Shown here: one piece after another, positions 28,363-33,283 of the stretch | Layout of the letters: every line of letters starts with the position of its first letter | How positions within the stretch are numbered: position 1 is the first letter of the stretch | Assembly (NCBI RefSeq): GCF_000018605.1 | Contig: NC_010003.1 | Span: forward strand, 62,001-126,000 | Direction of reading: 5' to 3' | DNA length: 64,000 nt | Origin: Petrotoga mobilis SJ95 | GTDB lineage: Bacteria; Thermotogota; Thermotogae; Petrotogales; Petrotogaceae | Position numbers and translations under genes: made by a program | Notes under the pieces: generated by a model | What the model saw: the letters and a program-made list of their open reading frames with translations, nothing else | What the model was told of the DNA's origin: nothing | The model's database searches: none

Positions 28363-29865
28363 TTGCGAAAAATAATTCTACTTTTTATTTTTTTGAATAT
28401 CTTTAACTTGTTGTTTTCTTTGAATCTTGATTCATTCTTTAAGACTATCGAGCTAGTCAACAGCAAAGAAGAGATTGTGTCATTTTATTTCACTAACAAC
28501 TCCGACAGTAAAATTATTGTACATATTAGTTCGTTTTTAGAAAATTCACTCTTTGAAGTATCTTATCCAAATGAAATTAGTTTACTGCCCTATGAAACAA
28601 AAAAAGCCGATTTTTTAGTCAAAGGTTCGAAATCTACAGAAGGTACTCATATTATTACTTTTTCTGTATCGGTTGAGGATAATTTACCAATCGATTCGAA
28701 GGTATCTAAAATTAGCTTCCCAATTATTATAAAAATTGTAGATTTGAATACTTCGAATATGCAAATTTCTTTAGATATGTATTGTGATTCCCCCTTTATT
28801 TCAAATAAAGAGAACTTAGGTACTTTTTTCCCGATACGATTATCTAACAATAGCAATTGGGAAATTGATGTTTGGGGAACATTTTCTTTGTATAAATTAA
28901 GTAATAATCATTTGATTTTTCAAAAATCCCTTTTTCAGGACCAATCTATAAATCTTTTACCTCATACTAGCAAAGAAGGCGATATTTTTATCGAAAAATA
29001 TTTAGTTCCCGAAGAATACAAGATTAGAGCAGAGTTATATTATGGATATAAAGATTATTTTCAAGAAAAATACGTTTATGAGAAAGAATTCAAAATATCA
29101 GAGGATACGTACAAAGAAAGAAAAATGGTTAACATAACTACATATCCTGATCAAATTTATATAAAAATACCTAAACAAATGAGCCCACGGGAGTATATCA
29201 CTACTCCGGTAGAATTTTCTTTGGATATACTTAATAATGATTTTTTAGATATAAACGTTTTTTTGGATTTTGAAAAGCAAGAAAACTTTTTTAATAGAAA
29301 TACTAACTATAAGTATTTATCTATTACATCTAACAAATTATCAATACCTAAATACCAAAAAGTAGAAGCAAATCTAATAGCAGATTACAGAAGATCAAAT
29401 TTGGTAGAATTAAGGGGCGAATACTACGCTAACTTAAGCCTAATAGGAGAAAACAACGATGAAACTCAAGTGGTGCAAAGTAAAATCAATATTCCAGTGA
29501 TAATAGATTTTGGAGATAATGTATATAATTCGGAATTAAACGTATACATAAAAGAGAATAATATTTTAAACGACTTCTATAACAATATAACAATCGGTTT
29601 TGAAATAAAAAATACGGGAAACTCATCTATTAATTATGATATCTACATGAAAAAATGGAACTCTACCACAAATAACCAGATAGGAAACAAAATTATAGTA
29701 AAATCCCAACAACCTCTCTTAGCTAATCAAACAGATGAATTCACAGAAAAATTAGTTACTGAATTAGGAGTGGATGAAATTTTAATAGAGGTTGTTACAA
29801 GTTCAGGTACTGATCCCAGTGAAATAATTAAAGTTGAGAATTATGCACTAAAAATTGATAGATAA
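28363..29865 (+). CDS. Secreted protein with Ig-like beta domains, 500 aa
   Basis: I do not recognise a named family. A signal peptide (hydrophobic residues 5-18, IILLFIFLNIFNLLFS) is followed by about 480 residues of beta-rich sequence. Repeated patterns such as FYFTNNSDSKIIVHI, FSLDILNNDFLDINVF and FEIKNTGNSSINYDI resemble Ig-like/NEW3-type domains seen in exported proteins. The TTG start has AAAGGAGA upstream. It is followed 20 nt later by an outer-membrane-type protein, then by a two-component system, which suggests an envelope function. Confidence 0.7.
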   Translation: MRKIILLFIFLNIFNLLFSLNLDSFFKTIELVNSKEEIVSFYFTNNSDSKIIVHISSFLENSLFEVSYPNEISLLPYETKKADFLVKGSKSTEGTHIITFSVSVEDNLPIDSKVSKISFPIIIKIVDLNTSNMQISLDMYCDSPFISNKENLGTFFPIRLSNNSNWEIDVWGTFSLYKLSNNHLIFQKSLFQDQSINLLPHTSKEGDIFIEKYLVPEEYKIRAELYYGYKDYFQEKYVYEKEFKISEDTYKERKMVNITTYPDQIYIKIPKQMSPREYITTPVEFSLDILNNDFLDINVFLDFEKQENFFNRNTNYKYLSITSNKLSIPKYQKVEANLIADYRRSNLVELRGEYYANLSLIGENNDETQVVQSKINIPVIIDFGDNVYNSELNVYIKENNILNDFYNNITIGFEIKNTGNSSINYDIYMKKWNSTTNNQIGNKIIVKSQQPLLANQTDEFTEKLVTELGVDEILIEVVTSSGTDPSEIIKVENYALKIDR

Positions 29866-29885
29866 AATAAGAAAGGTGACAAAAG

Positions 29886-31232
29886 TTGAAAAAAGTTCTA
29901 ATATTAATAATAGTCGTCTTTTCAGCCTCTTTTTACTTTTCAAATATTCACTTAAGTTTTAATGAAACCCTTCTTCAAGAAGTACTACAAAAAATTGAGG
30001 AAGCTAGTGGAAGCATTATTTTAACAAAAGCCAATACTTTAGGGAAAATTACAAAGGAAATAAATACTTTAGATTTGGAAAGCGCTTTAGATATTGTCTT
30101 ATACTCTACCGACTATGAATACAAAAAAATAGGACATAATTTGTATTTGGTGGGAGATTTCGATTTAATAATTCAAGGATCAGTACAAAATGCTACAGAG
30201 ATTAACTTTGATAGTTTAGAAATAGCAAAAATATCTAATATACTGATGCTTTTAAATCAGAGGGTTAGAAGAGTCCCTAACTCGAATAGTATAATCTTGT
30301 TTGGTAAAGACGAATTATCGTATGAAATATTAGATTTTTTCAACTTCTTGGATGACAACGTAGGAGAAAACAAAGTGATCACATATTCATCTTCACATAA
30401 AATTTCAAAAAATGTCTATGATTATTTAATCTTTTTAGAAAAAAACCATAAAAGTCCCCCGCTTGAAAATCAAGATGCTATCGGATTTCTAGAATCAAAC
30501 TTTTCATTTCTTACGGATCTAGAAAAAGTTGAATTTTATGAAAGCTTTGGTGTGAATGAAACAGATGTTAACCTTAATGAAAATATAAACAATTATTATT
30601 TGGCAGAAAAAGACGGAGAATACAGAGTTTTAGTTACTTCAAGGTTTAATCTAGAAAATCTAATAAACAATGAAAAAACAAAAAATGTCTCACATATAAA
30701 AACCTCATTTGGAGTAAGTTACCAATTCTATTCTAACGAAATTATGTCTAATATTTCTTTGCAATTCAACAAATCTTACTTTGATATCTCTTTTGACTTT
30801 AATAACAACTTTAAATTTGCATATGCAACGGAATTGAAAGATAAGGTAAGAATTGGAGCGATCCTGAAAAATGAAGAAGATCAGATAAATATATCTTTTT
30901 TATTAGACGATTACGAAGATTTCAATAATTTTGGTCTATACGGTATTCTTCAGATAAACAGTCAGATAGAAAATCTTAGAAGTATTTTAGTAGATTTAAA
31001 TCAACTAACCTACGATTTAGTGGCTGCAAAAACTTATACCTTTGGAGATAAACAAAAAAACGAATTGTCTTTATACCCTGGAATTGGCCTCTCAATAAGT
31101 AAGAAAGATCAAGCAACTTTATATTTTAATTTCGGTGCGCAGTATGCTTTCCCTTTTCAAAAAAGCGCGGCTTTGTTTTCTTACTTATACCATCAAAGCT
31201 TACACACTATCAGTTTATCAATTGAATTTTAA
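29886..31232 (+). CDS. STN/secretin-N-like domain plus C-terminal beta-barrel protein
   Basis: 448 residues with a signal peptide (1-18). Residues about 22-95 have the STN/secretin N0 pattern (LSFNETLLQEVLQKIEEASG, then LESALDIVLYSTDYEYKKIG, then LYLVGD). Residues 100-160 resemble a secretin N1 domain (IAKISNILMLLNQRV, then SIILFGKD). The final 200 residues alternate like beta-strands and end in Phe, a typical outer-membrane barrel signal. I see no classical secretin core. The start is TTG behind AAAGGTGA. It may be an envelope or toga component paired with the preceding gene. Confidence 0.6.
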   Translation: MKKVLILIIVVFSASFYFSNIHLSFNETLLQEVLQKIEEASGSIILTKANTLGKITKEINTLDLESALDIVLYSTDYEYKKIGHNLYLVGDFDLIIQGSVQNATEINFDSLEIAKISNILMLLNQRVRRVPNSNSIILFGKDELSYEILDFFNFLDDNVGENKVITYSSSHKISKNVYDYLIFLEKNHKSPPLENQDAIGFLESNFSFLTDLEKVEFYESFGVNETDVNLNENINNYYLAEKDGEYRVLVTSRFNLENLINNEKTKNVSHIKTSFGVSYQFYSNEIMSNISLQFNKSYFDISFDFNNNFKFAYATELKDKVRIGAILKNEEDQINISFLLDDYEDFNNFGLYGILQINSQIENLRSILVDLNQLTYDLVAAKTYTFGDKQKNELSLYPGIGLSISKKDQATLYFNFGAQYAFPFQKSAALFSYLYHQSLHTISLSIEF

Positions 31233-31290: not shown

Positions 31291-31965
31291 ATGTTTAGAA
31301 TTCTAGTGGTAGAAGATGATAAAGCAATCTCAAGGCTTTTAGAGTTGGAATTAACTCATGTCGGCTACAACGTAAAAATAGCAAAAGATGGAGATGAGGC
31401 TTTAAAATTCTATGAAAATTTTAAGCCTGATATAATATTATTGGATATAATGTTGCCTATAAGAGATGGATTTGAAGTTGCTGAGGCAATTAGAGACTAT
31501 GACAGTGATATTGGAATAATAATGATCACAGCCAAAGGAGAGTTGGAAAGTAAGGTTAAAGGTTTAAAAAATGCTGATGATTATGTCGTTAAACCTTTTG
31601 AAATAGAAGAAATATTGGCAAGAATAGAGGCTTTATTAAAAAGAATGGGGAAAACTAAAGAACTAATAAAAGTAGGAGACATAGAGATTTATCCTCAAAA
31701 CATGGAAGTTCTTGTAAACAAAAAAAATGTTCATTTGAGCCTCACGGAATTTAACATACTAAAGTTACTGGCTATCAATAAAAATATAGTTGTCTCAAAA
31801 GAAAAAATCTTAGAAGAGATTTGGGGATACTACGATGAAGAGAACAACAACTTAGTTGAAGTATACATCAATTATTTAAGAAAAAAATTGAAAGATTCCA
31901 CACAAAATATAGAAACTGTGCGAGGTGTTGGTTACGTTATTAGGGAGAAAGAAAGTAAAACATAG
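31291..31965 (+). CDS. OmpR-family response regulator
   Basis: A 224-residue regulator with a receiver domain carrying acidic residues VVEDD (9-10), the phosphoacceptor D52 in LLDIMLP and the conserved KPFE lysine near 101. A winged-helix DNA-binding domain follows (LTEFNILKLLA, then VEVYINYLRKKL, then VRGVGYVI). It is encoded directly before, and overlapping, its sensor kinase. Being downstream of two envelope genes, it may respond to envelope state, but this is inferred from position only. Confidence 0.93.
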   Translation: MFRILVVEDDKAISRLLELELTHVGYNVKIAKDGDEALKFYENFKPDIILLDIMLPIRDGFEVAEAIRDYDSDIGIIMITAKGELESKVKGLKNADDYVVKPFEIEEILARIEALLKRMGKTKELIKVGDIEIYPQNMEVLVNKKNVHLSLTEFNILKLLAINKNIVVSKEKILEEIWGYYDEENNNLVEVYINYLRKKLKDSTQNIETVRGVGYVIREKESKT

Positions 31966-33283
31966 TGCAATTTTTAGACAAACAATAGTTTTTACAGCCA
32001 TTACTATGAGTATAGTATTGACAATTGTTGGCATAGTGAGGATCGTTTTTGTACAATTCACACTTCAAAGTTACAACGACATGTATATTGCACAATTGAA
32101 TGTAAGTGGACTGAATAGGGGAAATGCTAACAATCCTCAGGAACCTCTAGATTTGCTTTACCAAATTATGCAAGATTCAAGTGTATTGAGAAGAAGTTTA
32201 TTATCAAACAGGATCGTCATTCTAGACGGACAGTTGATTTCAGACCCTTATGGTTTGATAAAGGAGAATTTCAAAATTCCTAGGTTACCGTATCTTTATG
32301 AATCTGATGGAATGTACTACATCTTTGCAGGTGTTCCTATATTTGGTTCATCTCTTTTAATAGTCGGCGGACCATCTCTTGAGCTAACAGCTCTTTTGAG
32401 AAACTTTGAAAAAGCCGTTTTTGTCATAATAACGACTGGTCTTTTTATATCACTATTGGTATCTTATTTTTTAGCAAAAAGCACACTAAAACCAGTAGTC
32501 AAAATGGCAGAACAAATATCTGAAATAGATGCCAATACCATAGATAAGAGGATATCAGAACAAAAATCACAAGAATTCGATATCTTCGCACAAAAATTAA
32601 ATTCTATGTTGGATAGAATTGAAAATGCTTTTGAAATACAAAATCAATTCGTTTCCGATGTTTCTCATGAGCTGAGAACACCTTTAACTTCTATAAATGG
32701 TTACATTAAAATGCTGAAAAGATGGGGGAAAAACGATCCCAAAATTATGGAAGAATCACTGAACAGTATAGAAGCATCCAGCGAATATTTAAGGGATCTA
32801 GTTGAACAGCTCTTGCTTCTGACTAAAAACGATTACCAAATCAAAAAAGAAAATATTGATATTAAAAACGTAGTAAAAGAAACTTTGAACCTTTTTAAAT
32901 TAGAATTGAACGAATTCAATATAGATATACAAGGAAAAAGTTTTACAGTGAACAGCTCTAACGAATATCTCTCTTTAATCCTCAAAATTTTCATTGAAAA
33001 CGCAATAAAATACTCATCAAATCAAAAAGAGATAACAATAAAATTAGACCCAGATCAAAAGAGCATAAGTATACAAGACCATGGTATCGGTATTGAACAA
33101 ACTAAATTAAAAAATATCTTTGAAAGGTTCTACAAAGTGGACTCTTCTCGAAGCGATAAAGGCCATGGATTAGGATTATCAATAGCAAAAAAACTAGCTG
33201 ATGCGTTAGATATTGAATTAAAAGCCTATTCTGAATTAGGTAAAGGTAGTACTTTTACCTTGATCTTTTTGAATCAACTGTGA
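31925..33283 (+). CDS. Sensor histidine kinase
   Basis: About 452 residues: a transmembrane helix near 20-45, an extracytoplasmic sensor region of about 90 residues, a second helix near 150-175, HAMP, HisKA with VSDVSHELRTPLTSI, and a HATPase domain (IENAIKYSSN, DHGIGI, GHGLGLSIAKKL). The start is uncertain. The GTG at 31925 gives a 41-nt overlap with the regulator gene. AGGGAG at 31942-31947 could instead serve a non-ATG start slightly downstream, because no ATG occurs before about residue 28. Confidence 0.9.
   Translation: MLVTLLGRKKVKHSAIFRQTIVFTAITMSIVLTIVGIVRIVFVQFTLQSYNDMYIAQLNVSGLNRGNANNPQEPLDLLYQIMQDSSVLRRSLLSNRIVILDGQLISDPYGLIKENFKIPRLPYLYESDGMYYIFAGVPIFGSSLLIVGGPSLELTALLRNFEKAVFVIITTGLFISLLVSYFLAKSTLKPVVKMAEQISEIDANTIDKRISEQKSQEFDIFAQKLNSMLDRIENAFEIQNQFVSDVSHELRTPLTSINGYIKMLKRWGKNDPKIMEESLNSIEASSEYLRDLVEQLLLLTKNDYQIKKENIDIKNVVKETLNLFKLELNEFNIDIQGKSFTVNSSNEYLSLILKIFIENAIKYSSNQKEITIKLDPDQKSISIQDHGIGIEQTKLKNIFERFYKVDSSRSDKGHGLGLSIAKKLADALDIELKAYSELGKGSTFTLIFLNQL

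Follow-up and report, generated by a model that had tools for sequence, protein, structure and literature searches.

The gene pair examined here, P1 and P2, is a type A copy of an operon that is widespread in Thermotogota, and belongs to a lineage that has lost the adjacent mini-secretin and subunit genes. The preliminary description of this DNA saw the two genes as a hybrid machine standing on its own, with an unfamiliar domain order. That view is abandoned, as is the idea of the pair as an isolated novelty, because relatives of P1 and P2 sit in the widespread operon, of which the pair is a reduced version and whose centre is a separate mini-secretin. As to function, we give a probability of about one half to the reading that the pair, as a reduced type A copy, represents a module for assembly or tethering in the outer membrane, with a tie to envelope signalling.

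The gene pair in the window

The window is the whole 64,000-nucleotide stretch of DNA that was analysed, positions 62001-126000 of a single-contig genome of 2,169,548 bases. Two open reading frames were found on the + strand at exactly the coordinates first proposed for the pair. They are separated by 20 nt, and both have TTG starts with a good ribosome-binding site before each. The two-component system said to follow them is also present, as a response regulator gene and a histidine kinase gene downstream. The features are:

28363-29865, + strand: P1, ORF of 500 aa, secreted, with four predicted Ig-like beta-sandwich domains
29886-31232, + strand: P2, ORF of 448 aa, with signal peptide, N0, N1, a further domain and a barrel-like C-terminal region
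29946-30158, + strand: P2 N0 (STN-like) domain, residues 21-91, from the family profile and the AF2 fold match
30192-30359, + strand: P2 N1-like domain, residues about 103-158, from the AF2 model, profile comparison and fold match
Residues 163-255 of P2, + strand: third domain, between N1 and the barrel-like region
30672-31229, + strand: barrel-like C-terminal region of P2, residues 263-448, with Phe as last residue and AF2 pLDDT of 22-40
31291-31965, + strand: OmpR-type response regulator, starting 58 nt past P2, with linkage to P2 within the family
31925-33283, + strand: sensor histidine kinase, with sensor-region orthologues in the family genomes

The divergent neighbour of P1 (27658-28248 of the window) encodes a DUF5698/DUF2179 protein (NCBIfam NF003191). 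Promoter and terminator predictions were at chance level, with 31 promoter-like sites against 28.0 expected and 1 terminator-like site against 2.0.

The complete operon in Thermotogota

Within the family, P2 is matched in 13 of 21 genomes and P1 in 12 of 21. In G018-G020 P1 and P2 are separated by the gene for a protein of 385-391 aa with N0 and a secretin core, and upstream of this P1-mini-secretin-P2 arrangement there is a gene for a small secreted protein. The P2 profile matched 59 of the 103 Thermotogota genomes, partly through the mini-secretin. When loci from eight families, part of them chosen by hand from the search matches, were classified with iterated profiles, a recurring gene order emerged: small secreted proteins, P1, a mini-secretin of 360-412 aa, and a barrel-like protein. 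By Pfam (PF00263, E about 5e-10) and by PDB profile matches (to E=3e-37) the mini-secretin is a genuine secretin of short length. Directly downstream of it, in all 33 of the classified loci, lies a gene for either an N0 protein (19 loci) or a barrel-like protein of non-N0 type (14 loci).

A strong P1 is present in 57 of the 103 genomes (76 of 87 listed matches were kept, the 11 with E above 1e-50 being dropped), and every one of these 57 also has a mini-secretin. Mini-secretins occur in at least 59 genomes, a count based on 72 copies hand-picked among the matches listed, with P2 heads and long secretins excluded; in the two genomes with a mini-secretin and no strong P1 (G055 and G061), the secretin gene lies at the edge of a contig. 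P1 lies directly upstream and on the same strand for 63 of the 72 copies among the matches listed. The Fisher p-value for these counts takes no account of relatedness among the genomes. Nine of the 13 P1 copies that have no adjacent secretin are window-type loci in genera g1-g3, while the other four are rearranged (G040, G041) or affected by a contig break or broken reading frame (G087, G075). P2 is kept without P1 in G004, and a 408-aa form of P2 occurs without an adjacent P1 in G012, so that P1 is not obligatory beside P2. Broken P1 or mini-secretin genes, with internal stops or split frames, were seen in G044, G049, L097:9799-11196 and G066:C5, which suggests that the operon has been lost repeatedly.

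The proposal that the pair is specific to Thermotogota stands in part. The operon is present across the phylum, which is the only one that was searched systematically, but a remote relative of P1 is found on two Deinococcus plasmids. This relative (within L118:4910-10656 and L119:4869-10554) corresponds to the first two domains of P1 only; on one side it has a hypothetical protein some 290 aa long, and on the other a small protein and an Ig-rich protein of roughly 1060-1090 aa. Secretin-like matches outside the phylum, including Haliovirga and Persicobacter, were also returned by the plasmid search; the annotated neighbourhood in Haliovirga is a type II secretion-like cluster, and the Persicobacter record is unannotated. 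A text search of the literature, covering mainly papers outside subscription journals, returned no experiment on any member and no description of the operon, which is apparently undescribed so far and may be a surface-assembly system.

Two ancient operon types

In a maximum-likelihood tree of 33 P1 proteins, a single branch parts the operons whose barrel protein carries N0 (type A, 19) from the remainder (type B, 14), with support of 100/99 and presence in 100% of 200 bootstrap trees. The two operon types are ancient. P1 of the window falls among complete type A operons from the same family (support 100/100), on a long lineage branch of 1.13. In four within-genus pairs for each gene, dN/dS was 0.23-0.35 for P2 and 0.25-0.43 for P1; both genes are under purifying selection and hence are maintained without an adjacent secretin.

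A type B operon is also present in full in the genome of the window, at about 2.0215-2.0285 Mb (L040:7477-14488). It encodes four small beta-rich proteins of 150, 150, 403 and 168 aa (the gene of the last being on the opposite strand), a P1 paralogue, a mini-secretin and a barrel-like protein. In an alignment of eight type B barrel proteins, residues 22-195 matched the mini-secretin core with an hhalign probability of 95% and a score of 66.5, against a maximum of 24.5 in 60 column shuffles and 14.8 for the reversed profile. Since this region stands above the shuffles, the type B barrel protein seems to consist of a decayed secretin core with a barrel-like C-terminal half attached to it. In the type B proteins of L101, L105, L107 and L091-L093 the degenerate core makes up the N-terminal half, which gives a second kind of secretin-barrel fusion.

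P2 has a secretin head and no secretin core

Taken alone, P2 of the window gives a weak PilQ match over residues 21-88 (NCBIfam, E=0.0012), and in Pfam there is no STN match, the sole match being to DUF5655 at chance level (E=0.096). The family profile, built from 12 relatives, reaches PilQ N0 in the PDB (4AR0, E=3e-7), and the Pfam STN cut-off of 28.4 bits is exceeded by relatives in L041 (31.4), L100 (38.9) and L096 (32.9). An AF2 model built from a four-sequence alignment has a mean pLDDT of 55.8, with values of about 80 across most of residues 21-262. Its head superposes on the N0 domain of FecA and on those of secretins and anti-sigma regulators (Z 8-10.8); for residues 97-160 the structural match is a GspD periplasmic domain (Z 4.5-4.9). 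The STN/secretin N0-N1-like domains originally ascribed to P2 are thus borne out by both profile and model. Residues 1-188 also align with N0-N1 of the mini-secretin (hhalign 99.5%, E=5e-23; 99.9%, E=5e-35 with a larger alignment), and the alignment of the two profiles ends at the first strand of the secretin core. Judged from these profile alignments, the P2 head is paralogous to the N0-N1 head of the mini-secretin.

No secretin core (PF00263, C-terminal lip motif) was found in P2 by Pfam, and the PDB profile matches stop at N0. The middle domain was considered as a possible core; residues 158-265 scored 15.3 against the mini-secretin, not clearly above the maximum of 15.2 reached in 60 column shuffles. 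On these three grounds P2 as a true secretin is rejected, in keeping with the preliminary description, in which P2 was held to be without a secretin core.

The C-terminal region of P2

A C-terminal beta-signal pattern is found in 24 P2 relatives, two of which are cut by contig ends. Among these 24 tails the last residue is aromatic in 67%, and positions -1, -3 and -5 are hydrophobic in 88-92%, against 8-42% for the even positions to -10. The C-terminal part of P2 has 7.0 amphipathic strands per sequence, compared with 3.7 after shuffling; this ratio of 1.88 may be set beside 1.08 for the P2 head, 1.31 for secretins and 1.36 for P1. Comparison of the C-terminal parts of type A (P2) and of four Petrotogaceae type B proteins gave an hhalign score of 41.8 at 71.6% probability, with a maximum of 16.5 in 80 shuffles and 22.8 for the reversed profile, a moderate resemblance. 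Residues 263-448 have no confident fold in the AF2 model (pLDDT 22-40), and the VIA-align matches of the P2 model list no outer-membrane barrel, although absence from that list is no evidence. Of the Phe-terminated, barrel-like end first proposed for P2, the beta signal and the strand density agree with expectation; the model, at its low confidence over this region, does not show a closed barrel. The sequence pattern suggests that the tail is probably a small beta-barrel.

The Ig-like partner P1

The description of P1 as a long Ig-like secreted protein is supported by its AF2 model (built from four sequences; mean pLDDT 69.7, weak around residues 292-332), which shows four beta-sandwich domains at about 20-127, 137-244, 257-382 and 390-497. 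No C-terminal membrane helix was seen, and the sequence finishes in a predicted beta strand. In Pfam, P1 of the window has no match, whether to WxLIP_PGBD or WxLIP_HBD or to SLH or any other wall-binding domain. Residues 17-247 superpose on the WxLIP protein of E. faecium (Z 12.9, rmsd 9.2, 211 residues) and on the PapD/FimC chaperones (Z 11-12, 174-187 residues). Against P1, however, Ig-like proteins of a generic kind reach Z 11-12 too, and the fold alone is therefore not decisive.

An earlier PDB search with a profile of P1's own family returned nothing useful. With a 20-member P1 profile the top PDB match was again E. faecium WxLIP (E=8e-8), and in Pfam 14 of the 20 members match WxLIP_PGBD and two match WxLIP_HBD, at E up to 0.1, the WxLIP match of one member exceeding the curated cut-off. 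In both profile and fold P1 is like WxLIP, and it has a likeness to the PapD/FimC pilus chaperones as well.

The small secreted proteins

The small proteins of type A and type B operons have in common a region with a Q-W motif (hhalign 95.2%, the signal peptide being included in the alignment). This pattern, chosen after the sequences had been viewed, occurs in 24 of 56 small proteins and in 3 of 581 other ORFs; a further pattern near the C-terminus, [PA]A[GDS]xY, also chosen post hoc, occurs in 11 of 56 and 1 of 581, respectively. There was no convincing Pfam family or solved structure for these proteins (one PDB match, E=0.99), nor any Pfam WxL match among those scanned elsewhere. None is encoded beside the window pair. 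From gene position, we would guess that they are cargo.

Linkage to the two-component system

All 21 family genomes hold an orthologue of the kinase sensor region, which is unmatched in the remaining 82 Thermotogota genomes searched. Immediately before the response regulator gene stands P2 in the window and in L041, L042, L044, L045, L075 and L115, and the 408-aa form of P2 in L114. In genus g5 the place is taken by a different secreted protein of 149 aa, 10-13 nt upstream of the response regulator in all six genomes inspected of the seven. In every family locus inspected, the gene before the response regulator is one for an envelope protein, so the early suggestion that the pair is coupled to the two-component system holds good for these loci.

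The 149-aa protein of g5 (L108:3033-3482, with equivalents in L109-L113) ends in an aromatic residue and occupies the place of P2. It was considered as a shrunken P2 and rejected, there being no detectable homology (hhalign 14.5%, N-terminal alignment). Its strand count is weakly above shuffles, the same count being reached by 12 to 80 of 500 shuffles.

Possible functions of the pair

Under our preferred reading, that of an assembly or tether module, the small beta-rich proteins of the full operon would be exported to the periplasm and then bound by P1, which would act as a WxLIP-like, chaperone-like Ig rod. The channel through the outer membrane would be the mini-secretin; P2 would be seated next to it in the same membrane, where it could dock P1 or the secretin ring and so help in placing subunits at the surface. 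In the window lineage, P2 would most probably serve instead as an outer-membrane anchor whose periplasmic N0-N1 head engages P1, and possibly also the secretin of the type B operon at 2.02 Mb, with the pair either under the control of the adjacent two-component system or feeding it. A narrower proposal, which we advance only tentatively, is a distinct chaperone-secretin pathway of Thermotogota, parallel to that of chaperone and usher, in which P1 hands small beta-rich subunits to the mini-secretin, with the help of a barrel protein derived from a secretin; in the window lineage P1 and P2 would have been retained and rewired to the two-component system. The helper would then consist of N0-N1 (type A) or a decayed core (type B) fused to a single-chain beta-barrel.

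It is also conceivable, if rather doubtful, that P2 acts as a receptor in the outer membrane and signals to the histidine kinase next to it, its N0 working as an STN domain of the FecA type. The place of an envelope gene before the response regulator in the inspected family loci would fit such a role, as would the likeness of the P2 N0 fold to domains of FecA and anti-sigma regulators besides those of secretins, and in G004 P2 and the two-component system are found where neither P1 nor a full mini-secretin is among the matches listed. However, the P2 profile is nearest to PilQ N0, the head appears paralogous to that of the mini-secretin, and no plug domain was detected. Outside the family P2 occurs without the kinase, its sensor region being unmatched in the other 82 genomes, and shared promoter control could account for the linkage.

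A purely structural role, in which the Ig rod of P1 acts as a spacer and tethers the outer membrane, through P2, to the wall or inner membrane and no transport takes place, seems unlikely to us. The four-domain rod, its WxLIP similarity and the lack of a secretin adjoining the pair are what such a tether would predict, but P1 has no SLH or other wall-binding Pfam domain and its relatives adjoin a channel protein and secreted proteins. That the pair is merely a decaying remnant of the complete operon is highly improbable. Secretin and subunits are absent, the window branch is long, and P1 remnants with internal stops do exist in G044 and G049, yet both genes are open in 9 of 9 genomes of g1-g3 and their dN/dS in the tested pairs is that of maintained genes.

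Recognition of the operon changes how Thermotogota genomes are read. Table 6 of the RQ7 genome paper (PMC5637354) gives TM1117, CTN_1450 and CTN_1933 as pilQ beside TM0088/CTN_0604. By their position and gene order in G091 (L100, L101), the three genes are likely to be mini-secretins; as far as that table goes, Thermotoga mini-secretins thus seem to have been counted among the competence pilQ genes, and the operon context suggests another role. The operon brings together, in a deep-branching diderm phylum, secretin and WxLIP/chaperone-like parts that elsewhere belong to separate systems. Were it to assemble surface subunits, the operon would provide a new route across the outer membrane; it also bears on how the WxL systems of Firmicutes are related by evolution to the surface structures of diderms. 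Secretin parts fused to barrel-like regions offer a testable case of the remodelling of an outer-membrane machine.

Comparison with known systems

The preliminary description raised a possible connection with the toga. The known toga proteins given in PMC3387000 are OmpA1 and OmpB, an SLH/coiled-coil anchor and the OmpB porin forming the background described there and in PMC9388160. They belong to the envelope of the same phylum; from the literature, on which the comparison was based, no domain in common with the pair was identified, and nothing found ties the pair to them, so that a toga link is not supported.

P2 shares its N0-N1 head with secretins of the PilQ/GspD type, among them the short secretins of phages (7ofh, virion export protein). 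Unlike these, it has no detectable core and its C-terminus is like that of an outer-membrane barrel, and the operons examined are without the secretin of 1000+ aa that is present elsewhere in the same genomes. In FecA/FpvA transducers, as in P2, the N0/STN fold stands at the N-terminus of a barrel-like protein, but P2 has no Pfam plug or TonB-receptor match and the pair is followed by a two-component system, not by sigma and anti-sigma factors.

The WxLIP (DUF916-DUF3324)/WxL clusters of Firmicutes are matched by the first two domains of P1 and by the small secreted proteins that adjoin it in full operons. WxLIP has been proposed to bind WxL and to stabilise it at the surface of the peptidoglycan (PMC10599100), a paper in which the portions covered by a term search hold no mention of Thermotogota. 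In contrast to WxLIP, P1 has two extra Ig-like domains, no membrane helix that could be seen, and a secretin and a barrel protein as partners; nor were the two or more WxL-domain proteins expected of a WxL cluster found, either beside the window pair or among the small proteins scanned elsewhere. Chaperone-usher pili offer a further parallel, in that domains 1-2 of P1 superpose on PapD/FimC and small secreted proteins are candidate subunits, although no usher was matched by Pfam in the operon proteins scanned, a secretin and a barrel-like protein being found in its place. The operon is best read as resembling a WxL cluster, a chaperone-usher system and a secretin machine, and as identical to none of them.
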